A DNA stretch of 64,000 bases, taken from the NCBI GenBank assembly GCA_949752735.1, contig OX457042.1:59751211-59815210 (forward strand), read 5' to 3'. The DNA is from Lumbricus terrestris. Taxonomy: Eukaryota; Annelida; Clitellata; Crassiclitellata; Lumbricidae. Shown here one piece after another: positions 8,848-38,425 of this stretch. The position numbers and the translations under genes are program-made. Below the pieces are notes generated by a model. It did not search any database and was not told the origin of the DNA. It saw nothing but the letters and a program-made list of their open reading frames with translations. The stretch's first letter is position 1, and each line of letters begins with the position of its first letter.

Positions 8848-9032
8848 TTGTCTAATCTTCCACTCGAAATCTTAGACATGATATTGCAGAAATCTTATCT
8901 GCATTGGATTTTGAATTCGCAAATAAAGCAGAGACGAAGATGTTATCAGATCCATTATGTTAGTCGACGTTTGCTTCGGTCAAAGAATCACCAGAAAACG
9001 GTTCAAGAGGTCAATCTGGCGTTTCTTCAAAG
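8848..9032 (+). pseudogene. Gene copy 1, F-box-like exon (frameshifted)
   Basis: Acceptor GTGATTTCAG| and donor TTCAAAG|GTATGG match the copy 2 exon at 28931-29117. It begins LSNLPLEILDMILQKSYLHW, then loses frame around 8930 (185 nt against 187 in copy 2). The remainder, VDVCFGQRITRKRFKRSIW, reads in another frame. F-box proteins bind SKP1 through a motif starting LPxEIL; that assignment is by resemblance. Both ends keep the copy 2 splice phases. Confidence 0.55.
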
Positions 9033-14112: not shown

Positions 14113-14127
14113 CTTCAATACGTCGAA

Positions 14128-14406: not shown

Positions 14407-14432
14407 AGGCAGCCATGGTTTAATTGTTTTAG

Positions 14433-14587
14433 ATTTCTATGAAAAAACCAAGAAAATATCTGCAATCATAAGAAACAATAGAAACTATCTCTTAGAAAAT
14501 ATTCAACCAAATGATGAATTAATCGCTTCGCTGTTGTCTCTGAACTGCATAATGCAAGAAAGAAGTCACTTCATAAAACGACAGAAT
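14433..14587 (+). pseudogene. Gene copy 1, CARD exon, 5' part (split by a transposon)
   Basis: The acceptor TTGTTTTAG| precedes a frame reading FYEKTKKISAIIRN, then NRNYLLENIQPNDELIASLL and HFIKRQN. CARDs are six-helix death-fold domains that pair with other CARDs in apoptotic and NF-kB adaptors. The exon stops at AGAAT where a 5.2 kb element begins; it resumes in frame at 19825. Copy 2 (33437-33724) has the same exon uninterrupted. Confidence 0.6.
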
Positions 14588-14807
14588 AAGCCAGTTCAGC
14601 ATTAGCAGTGCGCATGCGCAGCCAGTTTGCTTCTGCTTCCGGGGCATAGGTCAATGTTCATAACAACCGTTGATAAGTGATAACAACACTGCTAATATCG
14701 AGATTCTGTGATCTTGTCTGAAGCGCTTATAAATATTTGATTGATTAATCGATATCAGTTCGTAGTAAATTTCTCTATAGGATTATTTAACCGGTGCAAA
14801 AGTGCGT

Positions 14808-15507
14808 ATGTGTGCGGTAGTTAGTTGCGGGAGTGGAGAAAGACAATCTGCGAAGTCCATGCAACAGGGGTGTTGTTCACTATGTCCAGCGCCATTTGAA
14901 CCATTTACATCCGGAATGGACAAAATTGGTAAGATGTTAATTTTGCTTTCTTTATTTTCACTTATCTGAATTGATGTTACCGGGGGTGTGTGGGGCGTTA
15001 GCGAATCGGACAAGACACTGGCATGGAGACTGCCATGGGGAGCAAGAGGACCCGAGTTCGAGCCTCGTAGGGCAGACGTGCTTTGTAGGCTGCTATTAGC
15101 GCCGCGTATTGCAGGCTGTCTGTTCTGTTAGTACCGTAGTTAAGATTGATGTTAATCAAGACTGTTGCATAACGTAATGTACAGGGCAGTGCGGTTGCAG
15201 GTGTTTTATTAAAGAACATACAGAACGAGTTCCACGCTCTAAGCTCTCTGTTCCCACCTTAAGTCATTCCATATTATAACCTGCGACCCTGTCCAAATGG
15301 TTTTACCTTGCCGGTGAGGTACAATAAAAATTTCATCCCGTTGGAATGGTTGGGTAAGCATCATTAACACATATGCAATTATTTTAGGTTAACAGGAAAG
15401 GTGTTGATGGAGGGAACTGGAAACCATCTGCACACCATCGTATTTGTTCACAGCACTTTCCTGATGGTCACCCAACCGATGAAAATATTTTAAAATCTTA
15501 AAATGGG
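14808..15507 (+). pseudogene. THAP-domain exons of the ISL2EU-like element
   Basis: Exon 1 (14808-14928) starts MCAVVSCGSGERQ, giving the C-x4-C pair, and continues CCSLCPAPFEPFTSG to a donor, TTG|GTAAGA. Exon 2 (15387-15507, acceptor TATTTTAG|) reads VNRKGVDGGNWKPSAHHRIC then SQHFPDGHPT. This supplies the THAP tryptophan and the C-x2-H pair. An in-frame stop follows at the position where relatives continue. THAP domains bind DNA through a C2CH zinc site; here the domain would recognise the element's own ends. A further basic, proline-rich stretch near 16738-16830 may be another exon. Confidence 0.55.
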
Positions 15508-17113
15508 GTACGTATCTTGTGCTAGTGTGTATCTTGTGCTACTGTGCAATTTAATTTACTTCATTGACCTAAGTCAGTGGTGTTTTTGCATTGAGGGAAC
15601 CTTTCTCAAAGTACTCATGCGCTCGCAGATGTTTCACCCTTCAAGGATTTCAAGATAATTGGTCTAATTGTTACTTTCAATTTTGGATAATGTTTAGATT
15701 TACATTTCTAAGCTTTTGATGAAATTTATTTCTCGTTCAGACTATAATACCATGTTACAAATGCATGCTTTAGTAGAATATTGAAAAATAGTCTGTATTC
15801 TGTATCAGTGTAATGGGCATGCTGTGTTAAAGTATTTTCATCAAGCATAGCGCAAACTTTCTGCCTGGTGGCTTCAACGTATAAGAACTTCACAACGTGA
15901 CATGACTCAGAGGAATCATAGAGACTAAGAGATAGATGTAGCCCTAAACAGAATAATTTACCAAGAATAATTTACTCTCAACAGACAAGAGTCATTTTCA
16001 CTTTCTGTTTTATGGTGGTCAATGGTCATGCTAGAAATCCGACTCACATAGATAACTAGTGAAGAGCTGCTTTCGAATTTGCATATCATTCTGAGCAATA
16101 GCTGGATATTTTTTCCGAACAGATCGTGCATATGGTTCTAAACCAATGGTATAATTTCCGTGTAAGCTTACTTTGTCTAAGCAACATTTTGGAAACATAT
16201 CAAGTCATGAGTAGATTCATTCATAGGGTTATTCGTATTGTATAATCACATATAAAATGCAACAATCGGTTCACCTTATTCAGGGGGGCAAATCCGGCCA
16301 TGGCCCACCATTTAGAAATTTCTTCATTGTTCACCATCTATTCTGGCATGGAAAGTGGACGTACCTCGTGCACCCCATTGAGACTCAACAGAGAGTAAAA
16401 GGGAAAAAGTAGTGTATGACTGAAAAAGGTCATCAGCTATTTTGACGGAGAAAATGGTATGTTTTTCTGGGAAATTGTATCTTCTTGCCGGAGATTTTGG
16501 CCAAAGGACTAAAAAGTCATCAACTTTTTGGCAGATAAAACGGTATCTTTTTCCTCAGAATATGACAAATGACTAAAAAAAAGGTCATCAGATTTTTCGA
16601 CGGCCAAAGACGAAATTTTTTCCCCTGTCTGAAGACCGAAAATTTTGGCCCCCCTTCGAAATTTTCTGTATCCGTTCCTGCCCTTATTAACAATTTAATA
16701 TTAGCTTAATATTGTATAATTTTCAATGATGATTTCAGATATGCTGTGCCGGTTAAAAAGCAAAGACCTCCACCAAAACCACGACAATGCCTTCGACCAA
16801 AAAGAATGAAATTGGACGTTGAATCTGGTGTTTCATGGCAATTCAGGTTCCACCTCATGTCATGGATTCTATTGTCAGAGACGTGACAGATCATACAGCT
16901 TGTCACAGAGCTGTAACAGTACCTCAAATGAACTAAGGAATAATGATCATCAACAGAATATATGTGGCGTGTACAATTTATCAAAATAACTGTTTTCTAT
17001 ATATTTTAATTATAAGTACAATAAGACAGATAATTACCAATAGCATTAGTTAATACCTGTGGCTTAATATAAAAACTTAATTCAAGAGGCTGAAGAGTAC
17101 GAGTGATGTACGC

Positions 17114-17628
17114 CAGTGATTCCCAAAGTGGTGGTGGTATGACTGCTGGTCCGCAGAAAAGAGTTAAAATAGAATTTTTTAAACTGTATTTATTAATTTA
17201 TTTGTTTGAAATCATGAAATTATTCGAATTGTTGTCCAAAATTTATTCAAATTTCTGTCTTAATATTTAAAAATTTGAAATAAATCAACACGCCTTATTT
17301 TAATTTGCCAGATGGAGAATTCAAGCAATTTAAATTTATTCTAAATTCGCTACATCGATGACTGCAGTCAGTTTCGAGCTTATTTATGTTTATCTATGGT
17401 GAGCGAGTCCTAGTAAACGCTAGATGCAGAATTAAAAAATTGTAAAACATAATATAAAACTTTTAATTTAAAACTTTAAATATAAACAAATGTCTTTGAA
17501 TGAAAAAATGAGCAAATGTAGGCAAACAAATCTGGAAAAAAACAGCAGACGCAAATGGTTAAAAGCACCAAGGTTGGTGTTTGCGCATTGAAGGCATCTT
17601 TCCTTGCATCTCTACGCATCGCAAAGGC

Positions 17629-17664
<36 letters not shown>

Positions 17665-17926
17665 ATTGTCATTTATTTATGGCACACCTAAAAAAAGAAT
17701 CTTGCACAAATAGAGTTTAACAGCAAAGTCTACTCATAGTAAATCTTAAGCAAATAAGGCTTCAACTGCATGTAAATGTAGGCTAATTGTAAATAGCCTT
17801 AAAATTTAGTCTTTATAATTTAGGTCGCTTTTGTTTACCATCGCCATTTAGGCCTAAGTTAGCAGTCTGCGAGCTTCACCAAAAATTATTGCCACTCCGC
17901 GGCCTACTGAAGTTTGGGAACCACTG
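17114..17926. mobile_element. Non-autonomous hAT element (MITE-like, 813 bp)
   Basis: Ends CAGTGATTCCCAAAGTGG, and inverted CAGTGGTTCCCAAACTTC. Flanking octamers ATGTACGC (17106-17113) and ACGTATGC (17927-17934) agree at 6 of 8 positions, consistent with an aged 8 bp hAT duplication. An (ATT)n microsatellite lies at 17632-17662. No coding capacity. It is nested in the ISL2EU-like element. Confidence 0.65.
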
Positions 17927-18504
17927 ACGTATGCTATCCTGACATAATTACACGTCGCTCAGCAACAACGAGAGTATCAACAAATCAGTGCAAAGATAGC
18001 GTCGTAAAAAGTACAGTTTGGACAGTTGGGACAGAAGGCCAACGGAAAAAGGCATCCGAGTTGTGGAGACTGGTTCGGATGGTTGATGTTGTGAATAGAT
18101 TCGAGCCTCGAACATCGGATCAGGCAGGACAGGACGTCTTCGTGTTTGAGTTGCCGTTGTACCACACCTCCTTGATCCCGGCCTGATGAGATGCAAGATA
18201 GCTGAATGCCTTTCCTGAAAAAAATATATGTGGAAGAATTTCAGTACAATAAATCCATGTTACACTTCTATGTTATATATTATGCATGTGTAAAAATATT
18301 GTGTTTCATGCTTGAAGGCGTGTGGAGTGTGTTTTTGGTGTTTCAACACACCCACCCCAAATTAAATAATGTAAAAATGAAATAATGAATTTACTAACAC
18401 AAGATGTAAGAACTAAGAGGATTTAATTTTGAACCTCTTATTTCTATGAGAAATTTTACAATACAATAAATAACAACGATGATCCAATCATGTTTGTTTT
18501 GTTT

Positions 18505-18720
18505 TTATGTGCACTTGTTATAGCGCCCCGTCAAGCTTTCTACTCAGAGGCGCTCCCGACTACAGAGCGGACACTGCATCGGAGCTTCATGCTGAAGCGC
18601 TGAGCAATTGTGAGAGAAGGACTTGCCCAAGGTCCCATGCGGCGACTTGAGGTGTATTCGAACCTGCAGCCCTTCAGCTGCAAAGCAACAAACATACCCA
18701 CTACACCACCACGCCCCACA
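18505..18720 (-). mobile_element. tRNA-derived SINE, family A
   Basis: The minus strand starts TGTGGGGCGTGGTGGTGTAG and has the B-box-like GGTTCGAATAC. Its tail is GAGCGCCTCTGAGTAG...GGGGCGCTATAACAAGTGC. It is more diverged than the copy at 2831. It lies inside the ISL2EU-like element and was therefore inserted later. Confidence 0.8.
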
Positions 18721-19341
18721 ATGATGATGATGTGGAACTGCTCAAGTTCTGAATAATTATTTCAGCTGAGTATTTACATTGGAAGATTTGATGACGTTCT
18801 TGAACTCAAACAAACATTTTAAACATTTTTAGACAGTGGTGGAAGAGGGTTAACAAAGCTAATGTTGACTAAAGAAAAGTGTTTGAATAACTGAAAAGGC
18901 TAAAATCTGCAGACAAGTCCACATGCATAGATGAACTGCATCCTAAATTTTTACATGAAGTGACAGAAGAAATTGGAATCAGTTGATTCGGTTGCTTGTC
19001 GGCTTGCTCAAGATTGAGTAAACACACCCTGAAACAAATCCTGGCTACGGACTTGGAAAGCATGCATAATGGGCCAATACGGCCCCACACGTTATTCGGA
19101 TGTGCCACAACATGTTTAGTTGCCAACTTCTAACCAACCTAGACAGGTTTTGAGATAACTTGGCACGGGAAATTTAATATTAATGTATATCCTTATATGC
19201 TTTACTAGTCAGATATACTGTAGCATTTTTAAATGTCTGAACGTGTTGGATTTTGACTATGTAGTAAAAAAAAACAATCTGCCATCGTTGGTTTAGCGAC
19301 CTTCGTGACATAGTAGTATTTGAAATTAATAACATGCCAAC

Positions 19342-19504
19342 CTTTGTAATCATTGGCTAGTCTGGATGGCATTGCTCGTTGGTCATGATCGACGAGATAC
19401 GCAGGTCTCTTGACGTAGCTGCAAGGAGGCCAGTTCGTAACCCCTGTGGACTCGGGCAGCCAGCCATCCTGTAGATGAGTCGGATCGGGTAGCGTGTAAG
19501 TCAC
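19342..19504 (-). pseudogene. YqaJ-type nuclease exon of the ISL2EU-like element
   Basis: The minus-strand frame reads YTLPDPTHLQDGWLPESTGV then NWPP and SRLANDYK, and stops at a donor AAAG|GTTGGC. The pattern LPDP..L..GW..E......WPP......L.NDYK is one I associate with the N-terminal part of the YqaJ-bearing second protein of ISL2EU-like elements. That is recall-based. The catalytic YqaJ core is not seen. The orientation is opposite to the THAP gene. Confidence 0.5.
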
Positions 19505-19824
19505 GCCATTCGATTCAATCCTTAGGAGGTCTGGTAGTCGACATGACCTGTTCTAAGCCGTCCACGTTCGAAGCAAAAAACTGGCAATTGTTGCTGATAC
19601 AACGCAAATGCCACAGCAACGAGTTCACGTTATACTCGATAAGTCGTCTTGTGGCCTCTTTCTTTTATAAATTTCTTCAGATCGTCTACTTTCCAACGAA
19701 TAAAGTCATGCGATATTCGCAACCATTCACCAATAACAACCCCCATTATCGCTCTGATATGAACGGTGACCTATGACCTTTCCCGTCATGCCTCACCGGA
19801 AGTTCTAAGGGTGAACTAGCTTAT

Positions 19825-19957
19825 TCAACTCAAGATAAGAACTCCGAGCTCCTGTACATCGCGAAATCTTTCGACGAAACAAAGTTTTCAAACTTCGTCA
19901 AATGTCTTCGACAAACCAACCATAAAACAGTGACAAGGATCATAGAAAATGGAGGAG
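19825..19957 (+). pseudogene. Gene copy 1, CARD exon, 3' part
   Basis: Continues the 14433 exon after the transposon: TCAACTCAAGATAAG, then YIAKSFDETKFSNFVKCL and NHKTVTRIIENGGG. It ends at the donor GGAGGAG|GTGAAA in phase 1, the same phase and residue (ENGGG) as copy 2. These are the last helices of the CARD. Confidence 0.6.
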
Positions 19958-20181: not shown

Positions 20182-20546
20182 GCACAACAAAAATTGAGCT
20201 CCAACTTCGAGGTGCAAAGTGTACACCGTTAATAATTGAACCAAAACTGCTTCATCAGAAAATCGAAGATCTTCGAAGCAAAACAAAACCACGGTCACAT
20301 CAAACTGACAAAATCATCAGTCAACTGAAGGACGTAGGAATAGAAATCCTCAACTCTCACTTGGACAGACAGTCTGTAATCGTTTGGATCTGGTGTCGTT
20401 CACAATCAGCCCTTCAACATATTCAGAAGTTGTATGAATCGAATGAACTGAGAGATGTTTTCGTTGAAACTTTTCAAACTCCGATTTCAATGGTAATCAG
20501 CGTCGATAGAAATCAATTCAAGAAAACCATTGGCAAGTATTTCTGA
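20182..20546 (+). CDS. Gene copy 1, last exon (TRADD-N-like)
   Basis: Acceptor GCTTTTAG|GCACAAC, in phase with the CARD exon donor (G + GC gives Gly). It encodes about 121 residues ending NQFKKTIGKYF and a stop. The stretch QSVIVWIWCRSQSALQHIQK followed by LYESNELRDVFVETF resembles the strand-helix pattern of TRADD N-terminal domains (hydrophobic strand, Cys, A..hh..Y...L...). TRADD-N recruits TRAF adaptors in vertebrates. The assignment is by pattern only. The exon is open, but the gene copy is dead upstream. Confidence 0.5.
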
Positions 20547-22264: not shown

Positions 22265-22362
22265 TTACTAGAAGCAATTGTTTTCTCTTATTTAAGTGAA
22301 TAGCTTTTTTCCTAGGCCAATGGGGGGTTTCAACCCCCGAAAGCCCCTTGTCTAGGCCACTA
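22265..22362 (-). mobile_element. Truncated copy of the CAGTGGCGTA MITE
   Basis: Inverted relative of 20595-20855: CCTAGGCCAATGGGG and AAGCCCCTTGTCTAGGCCACT correspond to the first 60 bases of that element. The other end is missing. Confidence 0.65.
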
Positions 22363-23204
22363 CCTCTTCCTACTTCTTGCTCTTCTCACCTGTTGTCCCT
22401 ACACCTCCTGCTCTCTTCTGACCTTCAATCCCTGTTCTTTCTATACCCTCCTCCTGCACTTTTTGGTGTCTTCCTTCTTCTTCCTCTTCCCCATCCTCCT
22501 TCCACTTCTGACTTCCTACTCCTCAAGTTTTCTGGTGACTTCCTTTACTTCCTGGTATTTCTATTGAATCTATTCTTACTTAAACCAGGGTTGAAAGTGG
22601 TTTGAAAAATTTGTCAGATTTCTTTCGGTCCAGATATCAATATTTATTCAACTGCATGCCAAAAAGGAATAGGATAGAATGATGAGGATTGCAGAAAGAG
22701 GGGGAAATAGGAGGAACTCGAGAAGAGTAAGATCTGATCTGAAGACCTGATCTTTCACCTTCCAATAATGACCACTTTCAGCCCTGATTTAACCCCATTC
22801 CCCTCTTGCTCTTCCTAATTTTATAATGCACAACAAGCAGAGCAGGTATTAGGAAGTATAAGACATGGAAAATCAGAAACTGTCAAAGACATGACGAAAA
22901 TTGATCAAAAGCGCTAATGAGTTGCCAAATAAAACTCAATGTCTTTAATTTTAAATGATTTATGTTGTATATCTTTCTGTATACTCACTAGCAATAACTG
23001 ATGCATCTTGGCTGTTGGTAAGTTACTCCTAGTAAAAACACAGATTCTGGCAATCTCAATATTACATTATTCTTCTTCAGTTCTCAGCCGTCAGGCAGGT
23101 TCATAATATAAAATAATGTCAAATGACGCCAAGCGTAAATGACGCCATTACATGTTCAGAAGTATATTTTAAATGATGAAGCATAACGCATTTAATTCAA
23201 TCAA

Positions 23205-23420
23205 CACATAAATTTATATAGCGCCCCTTAAAGTTTCTCCTCAGAGGCACCCCCAAACATTGTCCAAACTCAGGCCTGGTCACTACAGAAAAGCCTTAAG
23301 AAGACGATATATAAAGAGCCAGCAGAATTACGGGGAAGCAAGTGGAAAGCCATTGGGAAACTATTCCAAATAGCTGGACCAGTCACCAAGAATGCTATTC
23401 ACTGCACAGTTGTAGTAATT
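23205..23420 (-). mobile_element. CR1/L2-like LINE 3' fragment
   Basis: On the minus strand, LVTGPAIWNSF then GCCTCTGAGGAG and GGGGCGCTATATAAATT match the end of the LINE at 46440 (VVGPVVWNALP..., GCGCCTCTGAGTAG, GGCGCTATATAAATA). Decayed, not coding. Confidence 0.65.
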
Positions 23421-23589
23421 GCAACAGACATATCAATTTTACACTTTTTACAGGACACAAAGTAAAATCACAAACCTATACAGGTTTGATCAATGTGGCA
23501 AGCAATATGACATTTTCAGAGCACTTAAGACCATGTCCATATATCAATGATGATCAGAGAACGAAAACTGCCCGGACTAATTACATAAC

Positions 23590-23810
23590 TGGGTCATCAA
23601 CTTCAATAACTCAAGACAATCCTACAAAATCGTAAACTTAAGTGTAATTGTGGTTCAGGGCTCTAAGACAATCCTACAAAAGTTGTAAACTTAAGAACCA
23701 TTAGTAAAGAAGCTAAGAAATTCTGTGGTTCACAACTCAAGACAACCTTACAAAAGCTGTAAACTTAAGCTCAACCGTAAAGCTAAGAAAGTCAGCAGTT
23801 CATAACTTTC
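23590..23810 (+). repeat. 75-95 bp tandem repeat, three units
   Basis: ACAATCCTACAAAATCGTAA, ACAATCCTACAAAAGTTGTA and ACAACCTTACAAAAGCTGTA mark three successive units, each followed by ACTTAAG and AGCTAAGAAA-like sequence. Confidence 0.75.
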
Positions 23811-23929
23811 TTAGCCTTACGATTGCACTTATCTAATAATTCGTAGGCTGTGGAACAATTCTGACAGTAAAGTCGCTTGCAGCCTTTCATCATTATCCCG
23901 CCAGTTAAGAAACTAAACTGTCATCTGTT

Positions 23930-24490
23930 GGGTTCTGGATCATGGCATTTCTTGGAGGACATTCTATACAGGTAGCAACGAAGGCGTTCCTGTCCAGGTT
24001 GTGCCACGACCTGGCATGACGAATCGCTCTCACTGGTTTGGCCCAGGGAAACGGAACTGTCACCACGATGAGGCCGGTCTGGCGGTCTGGTCTGAGATGG
24101 TTGGTGGACAGACCTCTAGATTGATCGGAGATGTGTCGTCATGTCGTCACGGGTCACGATGACATCAAGCCAGCCTCTGTGCTGGTGGGTCAGTTCTGCA
24201 ACGTGCTGGACCGGACCGAATTGCTGCAGCACTGTCCCGTGGTCACGCGTTTCCGGGCGAGTCAGGTCTTCCAGATGGAGGTTGAGATCTCCAACGAGCA
24301 CAACTTGCGTGTTGTACAAAGCAAACTGCTTCAGCATCGTCATGAGTTCGATAAAGAAAGCCTGTGATGGTGGCGTTGAACCTGGGCGGTAGACCGTCAG
24401 CAGTGTCAGAACCAGGGGGAACGGTTTCGAGATAGCCAGCGCTTCGAATGCATACAGCATGTGAATGGATGTCATCATGGAGGTTTAGTT
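23930..24490 (-). pseudogene. LINE endonuclease (APE/EEP-type) fragment
   Basis: The minus frame 24116-24478 reads LLTVYRPGSTPPSQAFFIEL, then VVLVGDLNLHLED and GWLDVIVTRDD, matching the C-terminal half of the apurinic-like endonuclease of CR1/L2-type LINEs. The GDLN motif carries the catalytic Asp and Asn. Downstream, SDHLRPD and VPFPWAKPVRAIRHARSW continue the post-endonuclease linker. There is no polymerase and no element ends, so it is a relic. Confidence 0.7.
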
Positions 24491-26399
24491 AAGTCAATGT
24501 GCACCATTTGCTGGTGAGGAACTCCAGACATCTTCCTCCCATGCTACAACTTCTCCAGTTGTAACCGAAGAGTTGACTAAACTGATGAATGTCATTTTCA
24601 CTGGATTAACTGTGTTCAAGGTTCTGCCGCTGTGGGATGTTGAAAACTGTGAGTTCTATCTGTGAAATTCATAAACATGCGATCTTCAAAGTGTTCGCCG
24701 CAGACCACGTAGTTCACATTCACTTTTTGTTGAGGTTTGCTGTGTGACAGTCGACAATCCACTGTTTGGATCTAAAGATAAAAATCAACATTCACAGTCA
24801 CAATCAATTAAAGAACTAGGCATAACACAGCAAGTCATAACTAATGAATACACTTGGGTTAATCCTGTGACTCATTCGATGGCCTTAAATTACACTCTTG
24901 TAACTGTTTTCATGTAGCCACAACAATGGTCTTTTGGTCATCCAGTGGCTACTGCTGATGATGAAAGCTTCACGAAGTTGGGCTTATGTTCATATATTGG
25001 CACAAAATTGCATAAATTTTAAATATTAGCTAGTGGCTAGGAAATTAGCATTCAAAATGCAGCAATTAACAACAGTGTTACCCGGTATAGAAATAGAGGT
25101 TATAATATAAGTAAGTAAGTATTTTCTTTATTACTCCACTTGCAAACGCACAATGGGACACAGAACATCATTATAATACATCGAAGTAATAATAGGTAAT
25201 AAAAACGTGCAAATTAAAATCATATATACCCGCTACATTTTATATAACATAGTTTCTAGTATTTCTATTGTAGCCTAATCGAGTGAACAAGTGTGGACAA
25301 TGGACATCTTATAGGGCTTGTCTTTGCAGCTAGTAGGTCACCAGAAGTAATGGCTAATAAATGTTCCCGAAACATCATTCTTCACAGGAAGTTCTTATTA
25401 TCTCTATTAGGCAGGGCAAATGGGTGAGGTCAATGGCGGAGATTGTATCGACAGTTCCTCAGCATCCATTAGAGCACATAATTTGGATATTTGATTTTAG
25501 CCTTGAATAGCACATCATCAGGCAATCCCGAAGACTTACTGCGTGCCTGTATACAAAACAATATGCTTACAAATGACTTGGTTGAAATAGAGTGCTGCGA
25601 CCTATCAGACGCATCCGTGATGCAATGCGCTCAGTAATCACTTTTGAAATCTAAGTGAAACGATCAGGTTTATAAAATTATAAATGAGTGAAAATATGAA
25701 GTAAATACAAACAAATAGAAGGTTCGAAAGTGAACACAACTGCGCTTAATAAACTGATTAGGCGCTGATGAAGTTAGAAGCTTCCGTCGGCAGAATTTCG
25801 AAATTTAATATTCACCCTTTTAAAATTTGGAGGGGAATTTTTCCTATAGCTGTACTTCAACAAAATGCTCTATTTACTTATTTAGAACACATGCTAATTT
25901 CTTGTTAATTACTTACATACTGAGCGAACTGCATGATGGGATTGAGCTTTTATAAGGCAGCAGCGCTCTATTTTAGCGATGTCTTGGGCGGTCATACCGT
26001 TTACATGAACAGCCACGCAGTTTTCGGGATTACCCATCATCTGCTTGGCTAGCCAAAATTAATAGTCGCTGTCGGGCCCTACGGTGGAAGGAAACTCATG
26101 CTCTTCGCTCACCGCACGATTCTCGTTCCTCTGCGCTCAGAATTCCTAACCATGCCGGAGACGCACACAGAAGTCTAATCATCGTGGTAGCATGCGTAAC
26201 GTTAATAGGACCCGCGCTGGCATGCCTCTCCAAGCCGGTTGATCAACTAATCTGCCGCCGTCTCACATAAACATCTGACGGTGATTTGACAATAAAATAG
26301 CTCTTACCTCTCTGGATTCTTCGGAAATCTGAAAAAACTCTATTCCTTTAGCATTATAACAAATATTGTTACAATGAACGACCGAATAGACCTTGCGAT
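24491..26399. other. No gene recognised inside the 21400-26509 element
   Basis: AT-rich sequence with scattered short frames, none with protein-like composition or repeat structure. Near the right end, CCACCGTCGCTAGGTGG (26429-26445) is an imperfect palindrome that partly matches the left end. Confidence 0.5.
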
Positions 26400-26516
26400 T
26401 AGACGCCATCTTTGTCTGTTTCGTTCCACCGTCGCTAGGTGGACTCATTACAGAATTTAGCATGGGAAGTGGGAGGAGCTTCGCATATGTCTGTAATATA
26501 ATATATGTGGCGTCTG

Positions 26517-27718
26517 TTGTTGACAACTTGTTGTGTCAGCCATTTTGTTCCTAGCGCGACTACAGCGTCTTTCGGTAAAATCAATAATATATCAATCGGA
26601 ATTACTTATAAATAACAGGTTACAGGAACTTTTGTAGATGTTGTACCAATTGGGTGATTAATCTTTGATGATAGTGACTATGCTTGGAAAAGTAATTATG
26701 AAATAGGTTCCAAGTGTTGATAGTCATACGACTGAATTGTACGACCTAATAGCCTACAAGTCCACGTGTGCACTGACGCGGCAGAAGGCGGGTCCTACTA
26801 AGGTGAACTTAGCTTCTAAGGCTGCAGTTCAAGCACCACAAGATATTTGGGAAGCAGTGGATACAACCTATACTACAATAATATTATGGGTTTTACTTTC
26901 GATGAAAAGCAGGGAGTAGCTTATTGTTTGATTATTTCACTGTGAACAGTGCACCCGTGAACTTTTCCAAATGCGTGACGAGGTCGTTGCCTTTTTTGAC
27001 TGAGGTCACAAAATAGATAAGGCGTAGGGCCTATCTATTATGTGCTGAGACAAACAGATTTGGAGAACAGTTTCTTGTCAGTGCAACTCTGATATCGAAA
27101 AGCTGAGCTCGAAAATGGATAGACCAGCCAACAAATGCCACAGAAATGCAGAAATTCTTGCCATTCAGAGCTGTACTGTGTGTAGTAGGCCTACATTATA
27201 CAATATTTCAAACTGTTTCACACTAAACTTGATTTCTAGGTGCCCATTAGTCTGACAGAAAGGCAAACACATAGAAGGAACAGTCATTTCTAATTGTTTT
27301 AAAATAATTTATTTTCAATATTTTTATTCTGAAGAAGAACATGATAGGCTGCCGAATGGAGAAATTGAACAGAATACACCTCCGTTTACAAGTCATACTG
27401 CGGTAAGATTGTGCCATTGATTTATCTAGCAAAAGTTAATATGCTAGTAACGAGGTTAATAAGACAATCAACTTGATATCATTATTGGAAACGGCCTTTG
27501 TCTTATTATATGATTTGTGTATGAACAATGGAAGTATGGCATAATGGTTGATAAATAAGAATGACCTTTAGGCCTAGACCGGTTGCACGTACTGAAGCAA
27601 TGTTCACAAAGTCCCCAGTTGACGATGAATGCAATGGACATTAATTTGACAAGTCAGACATAAGAAGAGACAAGGCCCAAGTGACATTTGATTGAGGCTA
27701 TATTTATTGTAGGCCTAC
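26517..27718 (+). other. Left part of gene copy 2, no exon assigned
   Basis: 27490-27710 aligns with 7370-7640 of copy 1. A possible small exon at 27333-27400 (acceptor TATTCTGAAG, donor ACTGCG|GTAAGA) has no counterpart in copy 1 and is not called. The copy 2 equivalent of the first exon was not found. Confidence 0.35.
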
Positions 27719-27930
27719 GTATGTGCACTTACTATAGCGTCCCTTCCAACATGCTACTCAGAAGCGCTCGCGACTACAACGCGGACACTGAATCGGAGTT
27801 TCACGCCGAAGCGTTAAGCAATTGCGAGCAAAGGTCGTGCCCAAGGTCCTACGCGATGGCTTGAGGTGAGTTCGAACCTGCAACCCTCCGGCTCCAAGGC
27901 ACCGAGCTTACCACTACACCACCGCGCCCA
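27719..27930 (-). mobile_element. tRNA-derived SINE, family A
   Basis: Minus strand: GGGCGCGGTGGTGTAGTGG (A box), GGTTCGAACTC (B-box-like), then GAGCGCTTCTGAGTAG and GGGACGCTATAGTAAGTGC. It is absent from the aligned position in copy 1 (about 7650), so it inserted after the segmental duplication. Confidence 0.8.
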
Positions 27931-28039
27931 TACTTGTGTTATGTCTTCAAGTTATGACATTTTGGGAGCATTATGACTGGCCTATTATCTGTAATCACAG
28001 CTTTAAACGTAAAGCGTGTTCCTGCTTAAAACTTTTGAT

Positions 28040-28445
28040 TAACCATGCAGTAATGGACCGAGTGACAGCCCTACGCTCTGCAACCCAACTAATGGGACAG
28101 ATTCCTAAATTTGGCCATAATCATACTGGTCACATTACATTGGGTATAGGATCGCTACTCATGGGCGGCAATGTCAAATTGTCAACACTTACTATAATAG
28201 GCGATGCCTCTGACTTCCTGCATATAGATCTGTTGTTACATGGGTATTCAGGGCTGCCGTTCCTGAGTTCTTCGCTGAAGGGAGAGCTCTTAGTTCCATT
28301 CGGTTGTACACTGAAGCATTTTTACAATTTAACTCAAAACTACTTTTTGCTCAGCTAGAATCAGACTGAAGCGCTTCTGAGTGGTGCGTTGGAAGAGGCG
28401 CTATAGAAATTGTTTTAAATCAATAAACGAATGAATGACATTCAA
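28040..28445 (+). mobile_element. CR1/L2-like LINE 3' fragment (shared with copy 1)
   Basis: The frame reads ALRSATQLMGQIPKFGH, the ARLIG.LPKFGH motif of this LINE family. The fragment ends GCGCTTCTGAGTGG, GAGGCGCTATAGAAATTG and (GAAT)n. Its counterpart in copy 1 (7770-8805) sits in the same place before the F-box-like exon, so the insertion is older than the duplication. Confidence 0.65.
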
Positions 28446-28476: not shown

Positions 28477-28914
28477 GTGACACAGGGGCTCAAAACCCGT
28501 CACATGTCGGATTTTGACCTTTTGATTTAGTCATATGCTACAATGACCAAGCTCGAAAATGCTTTTAACACAATGAAATTATCTTTTTTCTAACAAAAGT
28601 TGTGCTCGTTTGATTCTTTCATTAGTTTATAGTGAAAAAATAAAATAAAAAGTTACTGAATATTCGTGTCATCCAAGTCTACTGAATCCACTAAGTTATT
28701 ATTCAAAAAATTTTTTGGGCATTAGAGGCATATATTCTGAATCAGATAACCCAAACGGCATCAAAATCGGTTCACTACTTCGCAAATTAGGGCGAATTCA
28801 CAGTCATATACTGAATTGAAGAATAAACTGCATTCTTTACCCCTCTCGCCTATTTTGGCGTCTAGCGCAATATCTAGGAAGCGACAAACGACGGGTTTCG
28901 AGCCCCTGCGTCAC
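28477..28914. mobile_element. MITE with 25 bp TIRs
   Basis: GTGACACAGGGGCTCAAAAC at the left and inverted GTGACGCAGGGGCTCGAAAC at the right, continuing CCGTC. 438 bp, AT-rich interior, no coding capacity. Absent from copy 1 between the LINE end and the F-box-like exon, so it post-dates the duplication. Target duplication unclear. Confidence 0.7.
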
Positions 28915-28930
28915 ATTTTGTTTATTGCAG

Positions 28931-29117
28931 TTGGGTGATCTTCCACTAGAGATCTTGGATATTGTCTTACAAAAGTCTTATCTTCATTGGATTTTGATTT
29001 CACCAAAACAGCAAAAAGACGAAGAAGTCATCAGATCTCTCTTGTCAGTGGACGTTTGCTTTTATCGAAGAATCACCAGAAGACGGTTCAAGAGGTCAAT
29101 CTGGCGTTACTGGAATG
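28931..29117 (+). CDS. Gene copy 2, F-box-like exon (intact)
   Basis: Acceptor GTTTATTGCAG| and donor TGGAATG|GTAAAG bound 187 nt. It reads LGDLPLEILDIVLQKSYLHW, then IRSLLSVDVCFYRRITRRRF and KRSIWRYWN. LPxEIL...hL near the start and a basic-aromatic VCxxxRRI...W segment fit an F-box, which would dock SKP1 of an SCF ubiquitin ligase. The domain has an insertion of about ten residues and could instead be another small helical motif. It starts in phase 0 and ends in phase 1; the CARD exon at 33437 begins with the two bases needed (G+AG gives Glu). The intron between carries the mariner. Confidence 0.55.
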
Positions 29118-30017
29118 GTAAAGTTCCTTCCAAGGATTGTAACAGTTGTAGGCTACACTTTGTTGTCTAGATCTGAAGACTTGCACAGAAATTTTGAAAA
29201 CTTTCAGAGTGTCATTTCCCCCCATAGTTGTGGCTAGACAGTAACGGTGCATTTTGAGTACCTCATGGAAGCAACCCCTTCAGGCTCTCGTTGATGGGTA
29301 ACTGGCTTCCACCGCTATTGTCCATTTTGTTGCGAGAGCGTAAAGGTTTCTTGCAATATATCAAAGGACCGGAAATCATTCATCGTGTGGTTGTACTACG
29401 ATCATCCTGTAGCGGTATGTGTACGTTTTATGACCAGTCATTCGGTGAATGCCGTATCGGATGGTACGTGATCATAGTGAAGTACCACTGCTTTGTCTCG
29501 TGTTCCTTGATACGCAGTCGAGGCCTATGCTACTTACAGGAAAACAAGCAGTATCATAATACTGGGGTAATATAAACGGACGAAATAGTGTTCCTCGGCA
29601 TAGATTGCTAATGCCAGTTGACTGTTCAAGTCGTTGCTGGTATTCCATACACCAAACGGAATGATAGACACCAGCTGCTTAGTTTTGCTTCCACAACAAC
29701 CATTGTTTACCGTACCCTTTATGTTGGGTCACAGGAGAAGAAAAGAATACTCAGAAATATTTTTATATGAAACTACGGATTTGTGCGCTACAGTGCGTGA
29801 AAAATTCAAAGGAGACCTGTGGAATTTGCAATTAGCGGGTCAGACAGTTTGGCGTTAATGTCTTTTTTCAATTTTAATAAATTTCATCACTTAGTTCCTA
29901 TTTTGATTTTCCTTCTGTTTTCTATTCCGTTTCTATTTCACTTCGGAGTTCGGACAAATATTTAGCTAATGAGGAAGTTTTCTTATCTAGGCTAACACAA
30001 CCTACTGTGTTGTTATA
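29118..30017 (+). other. Intron of gene copy 2, left of the mariner
   Basis: 29130-29420 is homologous to the copy 1 intron (9050-9400). The rest has no recognised feature; a 74-codon frame at 29634-29858 has no counterpart in copy 1 and is not called. Confidence 0.5.
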
Positions 30018-30221
30018 CACTGTGAGCCATAAAAAACCGGGCCACTTTATTTTTAGCTATATCTCGGTCGGTATTTTAACAATTTTTATAATTTTTGTGT
30101 CGTTTGAAAGAAAAATTAAATCTCTACGATTTACTTATTTACTTGCGCGATGACGTCATATCCGTTTCGCAGCATAATGTAAATAAAGTTGATGGTTGAA
30201 AATTTGAGTTAAAATTTAAAA

Positions 30222-31146
30222 ATGTTGAGCTTTGAGGATAAAATTTTAATTAAAAATCTGCGGGAATGCAAAAATTATTCTTCTAGACGATTAATTAAGG
30301 AGTTTCCGAACAAGAATTGGAAAAGAAAAACATTAGATGACTTTCTGCGAAAGTTCAGAACTACCGGTTCAGTTGAACGCGCTGCGGGAAGTGGTCGGCC
30401 AAAATCGTCGCGAACTGAAGATAATATCGCCGCTGTCAATGAATTGGTTCAGAGCCAGGAAGACAAGCCTAAAACACATCTTTCAACCAGACAAATCGCG
30501 AGAGAGCTGAATCTTACACAAACGACGGTCAGACGCATTATTCATAACGATTTGGAACTGAAATGCTTAAAAAGACGACGGGCTCAGGAACTGACCACCG
30601 CGAATCGTCAATCTCGTTTGGTACGAGCTAGACAATTGCTGCAGCGTTTCTCAGTATCGGATGTCGGTTTCATTTTCTTCACTGATGAAAAGTTATTCAC
30701 AGTTGCTGCGCCGTCAAACACTCAAAATGATCGTCTTTATGTGCCTCGTTCAGTGTCTAAGAAACAGATTTCATCAGACCGTCTGTTGCGTACCAGGACA
30801 ACATTCAGCAAGTCGCTCATGGTTTCCGTGGGAATTTTGAAACTCGGTCGCACAGAGCTGATATGCGTTGACCCGGGAGCCAAAATTAATGGCCAATATT
30901 ATCGAGACGTGATGTTAGCACAACATTTGTTGCCACAAATGCGCCACATTGCTGGCGACATGTTCATTTTCCAACAAGATTCAGCTCCGGCGCATCGGGC
31001 TCGTGAAACAATTGAGTATCTGTCTCGCAATGCACCATACTTCATAGAGCCAGAGATATGGCCACCCAATTCGCCTGACCTAAATCCACTCGATTATTCC
31101 ATCTGGTCCATTATGGAACATCGCGTGTACCAAAAGCGCATTCAGG
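30222..31146 (+). CDS. Mariner-type transposase, N-terminal 308 codons
   Basis: ATG-initiated. Two helix-turn-helix motifs in the first 120 residues (SRRLIKEFPNKNWKRKTLDD; STRQIARELNLTQTTVRRII) bind the TIR. The catalytic core follows: FFTDEKLF (first Asp), FIFQQDSAPAHRA (second Asp) and WPPNSPDLNPLDYSIW (third Asp). I count 37 residues between the second and third, so DD37D. The frame runs into the hAT insertion at 31147. If one 8 bp duplication copy and the insert are ignored, the frame continues without shift at 33007, giving about 354 residues. No other lesion was seen, so the gene was probably intact when interrupted. Confidence 0.92.
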
Positions 31147-32998
31147 CAGTGTGTGATTTGTCAAAAAAGAAGTGCGGGGGTCGGCTTAATGTCCTTGTTT
31201 TGGGGGGGGAAATACGCCGCGGCGACTGCGGAGCATATCCGACTAGGGGGTCTGGGGGAGCGTCGTAAGCTCCCCCAGCGGGGTCCGGGGCGGAGCCCCG
31301 GCCGCTATTGATTTGGTGCAATCCAAAGCAAAATCTTCTATTGAAAGTGAATTGAATGAATTGAATAATATCACCTTTTTAAAGATCAGTTAACATGTTA
31401 TTTATGTTAAAGGGTTTGAAGTTTTTCTGTTCGTTAACCCAGTAGTTTTCAAGTTTAATTAACTTGTCATTAGCAACTTTCATTGTAAACAAACACAGTA
31501 CTGCATAAACTTGCTCTGAATTAGAAGTAAAATAATACAAAAACCACTCTCAATTGGACTTAAAATATGAGAAAAATAACAAAGTCCAATTGAAATTTTT
31601 GTTTTACTTTTTTTTTGTTTAACATGGAAAACACATAAACATGGAGCAAAGACATAATATGGGTATTCATTTATAGTGCCATAGTGGCACTATAATATTC
31701 ACTTATGTTGCACTATAGTTAGTACAACGCAAAGTGAGAATAATACTCAGCAGTCAGCAGACTCAGCACTCAAAATAATAAAACAATAGTAAGGTCCTAG
31801 GATGAACGAAGTGCTCGGAACTTCACAAGTCACAAGCTGTAACGCATCAACTAAATACTGTTCTTATAACAACTCACAAGAAATAACTTCAAATAAGAAC
31901 TTTCTTAATAAGAAGATATTTGTGTTCCTATTGAGGACTAAAAACTGAAATAATTTCAAATGACAACAGAAACAAGAATCATCAATAACGAAGTGCAAAT
32001 TATTTATGATAAACTAGTCATCATGCGAAAAATAATTATTGAAATGAAATTGTCATGTATGATGTAGCCTAATTTGTGATGAACTCTAGCTAAGTGGTAG
32101 TGACTAGTCTTTAATCATGGCAAAAAGTTTATATCTTGGTCTAAGCTCATCAACATTCCTTTTCTTCCCTGTTGGTTTGTCGTTGGCACCATGCCTGCCT
32201 TTTTGAACCAAGATAAGACATACTCGTGACACTTGAAAAATTGCACAGCAGGGCCATTAACAGCTATCATCAATAGAGCACTGACAGTTTCAGTTTTTAG
32301 CCGGTTTCTTGTGTCTGTGTGCTGCAGATTCATGGAACTAAAACCACGCTCGCAATCTGCACTGGAGATAGGATAAATGGACAGTTTTGTCAGCAATTGT
32401 TTTAGATGCATTCCTACTTTCAGATTATCTTTAAAAGTAGCAAAATCTGATAGGATTTCAACACTCGCAATAGAACTGAAACAAAGTTGCTTGCAGAGAG
32501 CAGCAACCTCTCTGCAACCATACATCGTCTTTTCTAAGTCATCTGTTAGCCAGCTTGTTGGATTCAAGACAAATGATACAATCATCTATTATCGCTCAGT
32601 TTTGTTGTTTTTGTTGTTTGTTTCTTCTTCTTTAGAGCCTCACAATCTTTGAACAGTATGCCTAAACGTTAAGGCTTCCACAGTTTCTGAAATTTGATCA
32701 TTTGGGAAATTGTGTCACTGTCACGGGAGTCGACGGGACCGGACAACGTCACAACAGTACAACTTGAAACTTTGTGTCAACTGTGACCTGTCAAGTGTTG
32801 AACGAATGAGGAAATGAAACAAATAAGTCCTACTAACTGCTTGCAGTCCCCCTCTTGTGGCACTGGCCGCCCGCACTGCCAAAAGAGGGGGTCGAAATTG
32901 GACCCCCACACCTTTTTTTTGGAGGTGGAAGTGTGGGGGTCGGGCCATAGCAAAGAGGGGGTCCGACCCCCCCAACCCCCCCGGCAAATCACACTCTG
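31147..32998 (-). mobile_element. hAT element nested in the mariner transposase
   Basis: Ends CAGTGTGTGATTTG, and inverted CAGAGTGTGATTTG (13 of 14). Flanked by perfect 8 bp duplications CATTCAGG (31139-31146, 32999-33006), diagnostic for hAT. Subterminal regions are G/C-rich (GGGGGTCGG; CCGACCCCC). The 31240-31310 stretch holds a hairpin-forming GGGGGAGC/GCTCCCCC. 1852 bp with only a C-terminal transposase piece on the minus strand, so it is internally deleted and non-autonomous. Confidence 0.95.
32115..32585 (-). pseudogene. hAT transposase, C-terminal dimerisation domain (hATC)
   Basis: 156 codons. SIYPISSADCERGFSSMNLQ followed by NRLKTETVSALLMI and NGP is the hATC signature (S...ERxFS.M......R..L......L). 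It mediates transposase multimerisation. The zinc-finger BED, RNase H core and insertion domain are absent, and a stop lies just upstream. It could also have been a last exon of a longer gene before deletion. Confidence 0.9.
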
Positions 32999-33006
32999 CA
33001 TTCAGG

Positions 33007-33146
33007 ACACTGATGAACTTCGGCAGTGTCTCGTATCCGTCTGGAATGATCTGGAACATCTTATTGACACTGCAATTGATCAGTGGCGACGTCGCTTGGC
33101 AAAATGTGTACGTGAAAAAGGAAGTCATTTTGAACACAAACTTTAA
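33007..33146 (+). CDS. Mariner-type transposase, C-terminal part
   Basis: Continues the 30222 gene after the hAT element: DTDELRQCLVSVWNDLEHLI then DQWRRRLAKCVREKGSHFEH and a stop. This is the usual C-terminal helix and tail of mariner/Tc-like transposases. The reading frame is consistent with the N-terminal part when one copy of CATTCAGG is counted. Confidence 0.9.
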
Positions 33147-33436
33147 ACAAATAAAGGCGCTGAAAAATTGTTTGCATTTAAGTAGTAAAAATGCAGCATT
33201 GATCGATTCTCACGTGTTTTTTAGTGTCTTCAGTTTCGCAAGACAAGTTTAACATACATGTAGGATGAAATCGATAATGTTTATTTCTGCTCTTTAGAGT
33301 ATTGATTCCTGTTTAAAATAATGCAAAAAGTGTAAAAATCGATAAAGAAATGACAGAGATATAGCTAAACATAAAGTGGCCCGGTTTTTTATGGCTCACA
33401 GTGTACAAAGGTTTTGATAGTTTAAATGTCGTTTAG

Positions 33437-33724
33437 AGTTCTATGGAAAAACCAAAAAAACAACTGCAATTATTAAAAACAACAGAAATTATCTCCTAGA
33501 ATATATTCAACCAAATGATGATTTAATCGCTTCGCTGTTGTCTCACAACTGCATAACGCAAGAACAAAGTCACTTCATTCAACGACAGAATTTAACACAA
33601 GATAAGAACGACAAGCTCCTGTACGTCGTGGAATCTTTCGACGAAACAAAGTTCTCAAATTTCGAGAAATGTCTTCGACAAAACAAACAACAGACAGTGG
33701 CAAGGATCATGGAAAACGGAGGAG
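33437..33724 (+). CDS. Gene copy 2, CARD exon (intact)
   Basis: 288 nt between the acceptor GTCGTTTAG| and donor GGAGGAG|GTGCAA. It encodes EFYGKTKKTTAIIKNNRNYL, LEYIQPNDDLIASLLSHNCI, FIQRQNLTQDKNDKLLYVVE and CLRQNKQQTVARIMENGG. The order of amphipathic helices and the LL..I...D.L...L....I......I pattern fit a CARD, the death-fold domain used in apoptosome and NF-kB signalling. It is uninterrupted, unlike copy 1. Phases: begins with two bases completing the F-box exon codon, ends with one base completed by the exon at 35427. Confidence 0.65.
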
Positions 33725-33789
33725 GTGCAAAGTATACACTTCATCCATAGACCTGAAATTAGCATGGTTTGCTTTATAAGAAAAGCAGT

Positions 33790-33839
33790 AGTAGTAGTAG
33801 GCTAGTAGTAGTAGTAGTAGTAAAAATAACAATAATAAC

Positions 33840-33918
<79 letters not shown>

Positions 33919-33925
33919 GTAAATA
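33790..33925. repeat. (AGT)n/(ATA)n microsatellite
   Basis: AGTAGTAGTAGG then about 90 bp of (ATA)n to 33918. Poly-Leu and poly-Ile frames here are not genes. It lies directly upstream of a non-LTR fragment. Confidence 0.95.
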
Positions 33926-33929
33926 ATAA

Positions 33930-34780
33930 GAAATATCGTTGGTGTGGTCCTCAGCGACAGATCCACTCAGCATGGCGAGGCTGCGGGCAGTAACATTCGC
34001 CCATGCAGGGATTGGATGGCAGTTTTTCCAATGGCCTCCTGTGGACTATGTCTCAGCGATGAAACCGTCAGAGTTGCGATAGGCCTTCGCCTTGGCCTGG
34101 ACCTCTGCGAGCCACACCAGTGCCAGTGCGGCTCAGTGACTGACCAGGGAGGACATCATGGACTGGTCTGTCGACTTTCTGGAGGACGCGCAAGCAGGCA
34201 TTTCGCAATAAACGATATCATCTGGAGAGCCCTTCAGCGAGCAGATGTTCCGAGTTCCAAGGAACCAGCAGGACTGTTCCGTACTGATGGCAAAGGACCG
34301 GATGGGGCAACGTTGATCCCGTGGTCAAGAGGGAAGTACATGACATGGGATGCTACGAGCGTTCACACGTGTGTTAACTCGTATATTCATCTGACCTCCG
34401 TAACACCTGGAGCAGCAGCTGAAATGGCATCCACCAAGAAGATCTGATGGCAAAATATGCAGGAATCTTCAGTACACACGATTTCATTCCAGTCGCACTT
34501 GAGACCCTGGGTCCCATCAATGCACAGGGTCGGGAGTTCTTATCAGAACTAGGGCGGCGGCTGACCATGGTGTCAGGAGACCCGCAGGAGACAGCACACC
34601 TCTTTCAGCGTCTTTCTGTTTGCACACAACGCTTCAACGCTGTTTCCTTTCGCTCTACCTTTGCACAATCGACCGGTGACGACGATCGCTAACTCCAGAA
34701 CAACACAGCTTTTACTATTTATTGATTTTAAAGCCTGAGGGATCATAAATACCTCGGGCGCTAACAAAAAATAATAATAA
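33930..34780 (+). pseudogene. Non-LTR retrotransposon polymerase C-terminus (restriction-like endonuclease region)
   Basis: A frame to 34447 reads SDETVRVAIGLRLGLDLCEP, HQCQCGSVTDQGGHHGLVCR, then KGPDGATLIPW and YMTWDATSVHT. After a one-base shift it continues KYAGIFSTHDFIPVALETLG, then EFLSELGRRLTMVSGD and LFQRLSVCTQRFNAVSFR. CxC...H...C followed by a PD...(W)D pattern recalls the zinc and PD-(D/E)XK nuclease region at the end of site-specific-type non-LTR polymerases; that interpretation is inference. The 3' end CCTCGGGCGCTAACAAAAA is followed by an (AAT)n-type tail. 5' truncated, intronic. Confidence 0.6.
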
Positions 34781-35190
34781 GAATAAGAATGATAACGAGA
34801 GTGAGAGTGATAGTGATGGCGATAATAACAGTAACAATAACAATAACAGTAATAATAATAATGATATTATTATTATTATTATTATTATTAATCATAATAA
34901 TCATAATAGTCATAATAATCATAATAATAATACAAGCAACCGGGGAGCCCGAGAGTCAAGTTTCCTATTCCAGCGTATCTCCATGACTATACAACGCTTT
35001 AACGCTGTTGCTTTCACAGGGTCTTTCATTAAGCCCTTAATTGACATGGATGAGGGTGGTTGGACTCGCTAAAATTCACACAGCTTTTGTTCTGTTTGTC
35101 TATTTGGAATATTTGTTGAAACAATAAAAATCATGAAATAATAATATAAAAAATAAATAAATAAATAATAATAATAATAATTAATAATAA
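34765..35190. repeat. AT-rich trinucleotide tracts
   Basis: (AATAAG)n, (AACAAT)n and (ATT)n tracts at 34765-34935 and a second (AAT)n/(AAAT)n at 35150-35195, tails of the preceding retroelement or independent microsatellites. Between them 34940-35130 partly repeats the upstream element's end (ACAACGCTTTAACGCTGTTG resembles 34628-34645). Confidence 0.7.
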
Positions 35191-35426
35191 TAACCTCTGA
35201 TGTGACAGAACTGGACGAAGCTTAACTGTTCCATTTGCTACCAACTGTGCTTTGAAGCATAGACTATAATATTTATTTACGAAAATGTTCAGTAGCCTAT
35301 CTGCTCAAATTAGACACAAATTCGTCCCGGTGCCTTCATCGTAAAAATTAGTTGCTTAGTTTGGCTGATGTTATTGAAACCTATGTCTGCTGGGAGTTAT
35401 TTTCAAAACACTGTTCTTCCTTTTAG

Positions 35427-35794
35427 GTACAACAAAAATTGAATTGCAAAGCCATGGTGCAAAGTGTAGGCCTACAGCGTTAATGGAAACACAGCTGCTT
35501 CTTCAGAAAATCGAAGATCTTCGAAGCAAAACAAAACCACGGTCACATGAAACTGACAAAATCATCCTTCGACTGAAGGACGTAGGAATAGAAATCCTCA
35601 ACTCTCACTTGGATAGACAGACTGTAGTCGTTTGGATCTGGTGTCGTTCACAATCAGCCCTTCAACATATTCAGAAGATGTATGAATCGAATGAGCTGAG
35701 AGATGTTTTCGTTGAAACTTTTCAAATTCCGATTTCAACGGTGATCAGCGTCGATAGAAATCAATTCAAGAAAACCATTGGCAAGTATTTCTGA
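35427..35794 (+). CDS. Gene copy 2, last exon (TRADD-N-like)
   Basis: Acceptor TTCCTTTTAG|GTACAAC; phase fits the CARD exon (G+GT gives Gly). It encodes GTTKIELQSHGAKC, KIEDLRSKTKPRSHETDKI, then QTVVVWIWCRSQSALQHIQK, MYESNELRDVFVETF and a C-terminus NQFKKTIGKYF. The strand/helix pattern around WIWCRS...Y resembles TRADD-N domains. The KIEDLRSKTKP stretch may be a short coiled coil. Very similar to copy 1 (20182-20546) but with one extra codon. Together the three intact exons give 843 nt with no stop before the end. No canonical AATAAA was seen close downstream. Confidence 0.55.
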
Positions 35795-37500: not shown

Positions 37501-37594
37501 TTTTTAAGACAAATAAAACAAGACAGCTATTAGCTAGCAGTTTATTTTTTTCGTATTAGTAATAATTTTGTTCTCTGTTGTGTTCTTTATTCTA

Positions 37595-38425
37595 GTCGTT
37601 TGTGCGTTTTCCGTCGGTTTTGTTCAGAGAATCAAGAGACAAGAAAATATAGATCTGTATGAGCGTGGAGTGACTAAACTGCGAAACGAATTCTTCGTAC
37701 TATTTGCATCGTCTCCTTCTTTAATTCATGTCTTTGATGAAAATTCATTTCAGTTGCAAAATGAAATCGAATTAACAGGGATTGTAGATCCCTATGACAT
37801 ATTATCCAATGAAATGGAAAATTGTCTCTACATCCCTGATTTGCGTGAGAAATGCGTCTGGAAGATAGCAATTGAAGACGATGACGGATACAAAATAGTC
37901 AATTGGCTTAAAATTGATTATCCACCACAAAGTCTGTCAGTGTCGACTGATGGTCAGTTATTGGCTTTCAATAATTCATCTCTGATGGTCTACGGATCAG
38001 ACGCAAAATTTATTCAATCCATTCAGTTACCAAGAGACCTCAAGGATCCTTTTCATCCAGTGGAAACAACCATCGGGAATGTCATCATAGTGAGTGAGGC
38101 GAATGAGAGAGAATGGGTCATAAGTGAATTGACCAGAGATGGACAGATACGTCGTTTTATTTCTTCAAATGAAACACATCAACTGAAATATCCTGAATCT
38201 ATCTCTATCGATTCAGAGGATCGCGTGTTTGTGGCTGACCATAACAATGGTAGTGTGATTCTCTTGGACTCCGATCTTAGTTGGAATAGAATTCTTATTC
38301 CAACAGGAGAGAAAGCAGAAACGAGGATCCACTGGCCAGACACATTGTATTATGACGAAGAAATGAAACAACTGATCGTCGTCATAGACCATCAACTTAA
38401 TGTTTACTCTATAAGCTGGAAATAA
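37595..38425 (+). CDS. Secreted-or-cytosolic six-bladed beta-propeller (NHL/SMP30-like), last exon
   Basis: A single open exon of about 277 codons ending HQLNVYSISWK and a stop. Repeated blades: PYDILSNEMENCLYIPDLRE, QSLSVSTDGQLLAF, ESISIDSEDRVFVADHNNGS and WPDTLYYDEEMKQLIVV. The D..G.h.V.D..N..h pattern is that of NHL/YVTN-type propellers, which bind protein or ligand partners. The frame extends upstream to 37568 without an ATG, and the apparent hydrophobic leader is the translation of a pyrimidine-rich acceptor (TTCTTTATTCTAG, or TTTTGTTCAG at 37626), so at least one upstream exon is missing from view. No internal stop, so probably functional. Confidence 0.65.
   Translation, partial: VVCAFSVGFVQRIKRQENIDLYERGVTKLRNEFFVLFASSPSLIHVFDENSFQLQNEIELTGIVDPYDILSNEMENCLYIPDLREKCVWKIAIEDDDGYKIVNWLKIDYPPQSLSVSTDGQLLAFNNSSLMVYGSDAKFIQSIQLPRDLKDPFHPVETTIGNVIIVSEANEREWVISELTRDGQIRRFISSNETHQLKYPESISIDSEDRVFVADHNNGSVILLDSDLSWNRILIPTGEKAETRIHWPDTLYYDEEMKQLIVVIDHQLNVYSISWK

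Follow-up and report, generated by a model that had tools for sequence, protein, structure and literature searches.

A duplicated Lumbricus terrestris locus that may encode an adaptor with an F-box-like segment, a CARD and a TRADD-N-type domain

Described systems and the earthworm locus

Pairs of a Death-like and a TRADD-N domain, joined to variable partners, are described in passages of Kaur et al. (2021; PMC8195603) as expanded in marine invertebrates; the same passages report retrotransposons near the TRADD-N genes of the DEDD2 clade and propose that TRADD-N acts as a bridge or switch between its flanking domains across the superfamily. Here we analyze a locus of the earthworm Lumbricus terrestris in which three plus-strand exons occur in two copies within a 64,000-nucleotide stretch of DNA (assembly GCA_949752735.1, contig OX457042.1, positions 59,751,211 to 59,815,210 of the forward strand; hereafter the window, numbered from its first letter). 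Our main conclusion, to which we assign a probability of about 0.58, is that these exons form the 3' portion of a genuine animal gene that has been duplicated and that codes for an immune or cell-death adaptor, a small protein that would consist of an N-terminal helical F-box-like piece, a CARD and a C-terminal alpha/beta domain of the TRADD-N type. Of this, the exon structure, the co-linear copy, selection on the coding frames and the CARD are shown directly; the joining of the exons by splicing, the identity of exon 3 as TRADD-N, the resemblance of exon 1 to an F-box and every functional statement below are what we infer.

The locus resembles the DEDD2-clade TRADD-N proteins, as portrayed in these passages of Kaur et al. 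(2021; PMC8195603), in the constant core of a Death-like domain followed by TRADD-N, the variable flank, the presence of several copies and the proximity of retrotransposons, but differs from them in that a CARD replaces the usual DED, the flank is F-box-like and the putative TRADD-N domain lies at the extreme C-terminus. The combination of TRADD-N with a Death-fold domain also recalls vertebrate TRADD, characterized in the same source passages as an adaptor leading to a ubiquitin ligase (PMC8195603); however, in TRADD the TRADD-N domain comes first and is followed by a Death domain, so that both the order and the type of the Death-fold domain differ. By sequence, the closest natural CARDs of known structure to that of exon 2 are those of NOD1 and CARD8 (E-values, E, of 0.19-0.57); unlike in these proteins, no NACHT, LRR or FIIND was detected in the scanned frames, which include part of the short frames of the region. 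Exon 1 shares with the F-box proteins SKP2 and FBXW7 the LPxE motif of helix 1 followed by the VC of helix 2, but departs from the F-box consensus in having 15 extra residues between LP and VC, no Trp right after VC and no profile or fold match. The term 'F-box' does not occur in the main text of PMC8195603 (the source data tables are outside this count), and a protein joining an F-box to a CARD or to TRADD-N is named in no title or abstract opening in the literature searched, supplements being outside that scope. With a CARD in place of the DED and a partner that is F-box-like, the protein would represent a variant of the described core; the F-box partner, if confirmed, would be new.

Exon structure and comparison of the two copies

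The exons of copy 2 (28931..35794) and of copy 1 (8848-20546) are as follows.

28931..29117, plus strand: copy 2 exon 1, 187 nucleotides, phase 0 to 1; F-box-like 62-residue peptide; not the start exon
33437..33724, plus strand: copy 2 exon 2, 288 nucleotides, phase 1 to 1; CARD
35427..35794, plus strand: copy 2 exon 3, 368 nucleotides, phase 1 to stop; probable TRADD-N-type domain and C-terminus
8848..9032, plus strand: copy 1 exon 1, with a net 2-nucleotide deletion that causes a frameshift
14433..14587, plus strand: copy 1 exon 2 (CARD), first part, which alone matches no Pfam family
14588..19822, no strand assigned: 5.2-kilobase (kb) insert splitting the CARD exon of copy 1
19823..19957, plus strand: copy 1 exon 2 (CARD), second part
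20182..20546, plus strand: copy 1 exon 3, its protein 86% identical to that of copy 2

The coordinates, AG and GT borders, phases (0-1, 1-1, 1-stop) and 843 open nucleotides that a first-pass annotation had given for copy 2 were all exact on recomputation. The borders read TTGCAG/TTG...ATG/GTAAAG for exon 1, GTTTAG/AGT...GAG/GTGCAA for exon 2 and CTTTTAG/GTA...TGA for exon 3, and the joined 843 nucleotides comprise 280 codons with no internal stop and a terminal TGA; phases and borders thus suggest that the three exons would be spliced into one transcript. Exon 1 offers no ATG in frame, which means that the model lacks its 5' end and at least one upstream exon. Comparison of the stop-to-stop frames from the regions of both copies, complete for the part before exon 1, revealed no upstream start exon: the frames common to both copies consisted of repeats, apart from a weak match of short length (7542-7598 and 27555-27641, E = 6e-4). 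A candidate upstream frame, which by eye runs open from about 7469 in copy 1, was rejected because its counterpart in copy 2 contains a stop.

In copy 1 the three exons recur in unchanged order and on the same strand, with all five AG and GT borders at aligned positions; this copy is broken by the net 2-nucleotide deletion in exon 1 and the 5.2-kb insert in the CARD exon. The comparison of the copies covered 268 of the 280 codons, the 12 omitted ones being those beside the indels and the insert, including two split codons. Over these codons the copies differ at 98 nucleotides, resulting in 52 amino-acid changes, compared with 67.7 expected in a neutral simulation (none of 2000 runs gave 52 or fewer), and the ratio of nonsynonymous to synonymous divergence (dN/dS) is 0.39. 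By exon, dN/dS is 0.26 for exon 1 (P = 0.006), 0.44 for exon 2 (P = 0.11) and 0.48 for exon 3 (P = 0.016). These values indicate that the coding frames evolved under purifying selection for much of the period after the duplication, with exon 2 as the least clear case. Because the co-linear copy keeps the five borders and selection of this kind appears to have acted between the copies, we consider the three exons to be real coding exons.

That both copies are pseudogenes, copy 1 through its frameshift and insertion and copy 2 through loss of the start exon or splicing disrupted by transposons, appears unlikely. The broken state of copy 1, the failure of the upstream frame comparison to find a start exon for copy 2 and the transposons that adjoin two acceptors of copy 2, at 22 and 33 nucleotides, are all in line with such decay. 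Yet copy 2 retains all its borders and 280 open codons, and the 98 differences create no stop in the aligned codons, an outcome seen in 0.65% of the simulations; the stop that copy 1 acquires in the shifted frame at the exon 1 deletion is outside the 268 compared codons.

Synonymous divergence (dS) decreases along the gene, from 0.59 in exon 1 to 0.27 in exon 2 and 0.14 in exon 3. Ten bins of 34 nucleotides that start at 35486, cover the remainder of exon 3 and extend 31 nucleotides past the stop codon each contain 30 to 34 identical bases. Such unequal dS would fit a division in which exon 1 belonged to one gene and exons 2 and 3 to its neighbor, as would the length of intron 1 in both copies and the similarity of the copies, which extends past exon 1 into the adjoining intron (8834-9399 and 28916-29448, 70%). 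Nevertheless, two separate genes seem distinctly improbable: order, strand and border positions are common to both copies, intron 1 of copy 2 amounts to just about 0.9 kb once its transposon is subtracted, and the dS gradient may plausibly stem from gene conversion that affected part of the 3' end.

Domains of the predicted protein

The first-pass annotation had proposed that an F-box, a CARD and a TRADD-N-like domain are combined in this protein, linking SCF ubiquitination to death-fold signaling. Of these three domains, the CARD is supported. Exon 2 alone matches PF00619 at E = 2.2e-7 and 31.2 bits, exceeding the curated cut-off of 23.9, over profile positions 3-84 of 85, and the joined three-exon protein scores 28.3 bits; exon 2 can thus be assigned as a CARD exon by its profile score. 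Two further Pfam matches of exon 2 are below cut-off (TopBP1_BRCT0, E = 0.015; CARD_2, E = 0.16). Among the nine listed PDB sequence matches of exon 2, eight are the NOD1 and CARD8 CARDs mentioned above and the ninth is a designed protein; the joined protein yielded five PDB matches, four to NOD1 and one designed (E = 0.44-1.1).

For exon 3, the TRADD-N reading is favored but remains below the profile threshold, and the match comes from copy 1 only. Copy 1 exon 3 matches TRADD-like_N (PF20694) at E = 0.053 and 0.029 (13.8 and 14.6 bits, cut-off 23.7), the latter match spanning profile positions 4-67 of 69, and Pfam profile scans gave no TRADD-like_N match for copy 2 exon 3; PF09034 was listed for neither copy's exon 3, and no TRADD chain was found among the PDB sequence matches of exon 3. 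The low-confidence structural model of exon 3 shows a helix at residues 40-51, strands at 55-62 and 65-71, a helix at 75-86 and a strand at 93-96, that is, an alpha-beta-beta-alpha-beta order; the fold by which the TRADD-N superfamily is defined is an RRM-like two-layer alpha/beta structure with a four-stranded sheet. At the beta2-beta3 turn, exon 3 has Gln-Ser in copy 1 and Gln-Thr in copy 2; the superfamily description in the cited passages of Kaur et al. (PMC8195603) places a conserved Ser at this turn, within the uS motif, a tiny residue followed by Ser or sometimes Cys. Exon 3 is accordingly graded as a probable TRADD-N-type domain on the strength of sequence and model. Assignment to a different small domain within this broad alpha/beta fold is less probable, given that exon 3 directly follows the CARD, has Ser or Thr at the expected turn and preserves the sequence of elements.

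Two other candidates for exon 3 were set aside as chance: a fimbrial subunit (profile against PDB, E = 0.0012), whose score came from three identical repeats at 6 bits each, and bacterial Lpg2149, the best of seven PDB matches of copy 1 exon 3 (E = 0.43). No close relative of exon 3 was confirmed by tblastn in 100 viral and 126 genome-contig stretches, a search of collections made up of viruses, bacteria and archaea and hence of little information.

The F-box found no support in the profile and fold searches made, and the proposed SCF link therefore depends on the weakest exon. It is an even bet that the protein is an adaptor with a CARD and TRADD-N only, in which exon 1 would extend the CARD N-terminally as a helical segment and have no connection to SCF ligases. 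In Pfam scans at E up to 10, no F-box family was matched by copy 2 exon 1, its upstream-extended frame or the two copy 1 pieces, although the HMMER filters discard most weak matches. The three PDB sequence matches of exon 1 include no F-box chain; the single Foldseek match of its model is unrelated and not an F-box, and VIA structure alignment returned two chains, neither of them an F-box. Against a three-sequence F-box profile, exon 1 scores -1.5 bits, equaled or exceeded by 2145 of 5000 shuffles. What argues for more than an extension is the motif order LPLEIL ... VC ... IW: among 200000 shuffles, 2 contain the pattern LPxE[IL][IL] ... VC ... [IL]W, and two less strict patterns appear in 37 and 271, all three having been picked after the exon was read. 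The three helices of the structure prediction for exon 1 also speak for it, at low confidence (predicted local distance difference test, pLDDT, 60.5; predicted template modeling score, pTM, 0.33). Exon 1 may fairly be described as F-box-like, which is less than an established F-box.

Surroundings of the gene and proposed role

Three mobile elements were delineated around copy 2.

28483..28908, no strand assigned: 426-bp element with inverted ends, 22 nucleotides before copy 2 exon 1; absent at the equivalent place of copy 1
30018..33403, plus strand: Tc1/mariner-like element in intron 1 of copy 2, with TA on both sides, ending 33 nucleotides before exon 2
31147..32998, minus strand: hAT element nested inside the mariner-like element, with an 8-bp target duplication (CATTCAGG)

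The mariner-like element matches the transposase family DDE_3 below the family cut-off (E = 0.00022), and the hAT element contains a minus-strand transposase fragment that matches PF05699 above cut-off. A reverse transcriptase fragment (14131-14436; RVT_1, E = 0.0066, below cut-off) adjoins the CARD exon of copy 1, the intron 1 of which holds a large inverted repeat (11055-13908) with arms of 804 nucleotides at 98% and direct repeats spaced 33 to 35 nucleotides and multiples thereof.

Ten upstream frames were scanned for sensor domains (eight within 22300-28355, plus 4135-4644 and 14131-14436), and the results were retroelement fragments, weak matches and one near-threshold match, to NuBaID_C. 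NuBaID_C is a BIR-like domain. It was matched by 23315-23632, upstream of copy 2, at E = 0.00082 and 19.9 bits (cut-off 20.2); this frame also weakly matches zf-C3HC (E = 0.031), contains C-x2-C and H-x3-C and has no PDB match. As copy 1 has no counterpart, the frame was set aside as a part of the gene, although for copy 2 alone this would be possible.

Downstream, 37538-38425 is a single open frame of 295 residues in which an NHL repeat scores 22.1 bits (cut-off 20), possibly of a beta-propeller gene; since both copies have the stop that terminates exon 3, this frame probably belongs to another gene. Elsewhere in the window, a minus-strand frame of 1409 residues (50598-54824) that carries SCAN and integrase zinc-binding domains represents a retroelement, and a reverse transcriptase frame (RVT_1, E = 6.4e-27) occupies 46482-47867, likewise on the minus strand. 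NCBIfam yielded no family for four proteins, and two PADLOC matches (E = 0.0062 and 0.008) were weak and taken as chance.

In the adaptor that we propose, contact between CARDs would bring the protein to caspases that carry a CARD or to receptors of the NLR type, TRADD-N could serve as a switch or bridge that keeps its neighbors inactive until a signal arrives, and the N-terminal piece might provide a variable output, possibly via Skp1 binding. The full form of this model, a single animal protein in which a divergent F-box, a CARD and TRADD-N are combined so that CARD death-fold assembly directly recruits an SCF ubiquitin ligase under the TRADD-N switch, appears rather doubtful. Should the three domains prove to be joined in one transcript, CARD signaling would recruit a ubiquitin ligase in a single step, much like shortcuts that have been reported from immune networks of invertebrates, and an SCF-type output would join the described partners of TRADD-N. 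If exon 1 is not an F-box, the locus would add a further CARD and TRADD-N adaptor related to the known expansion.
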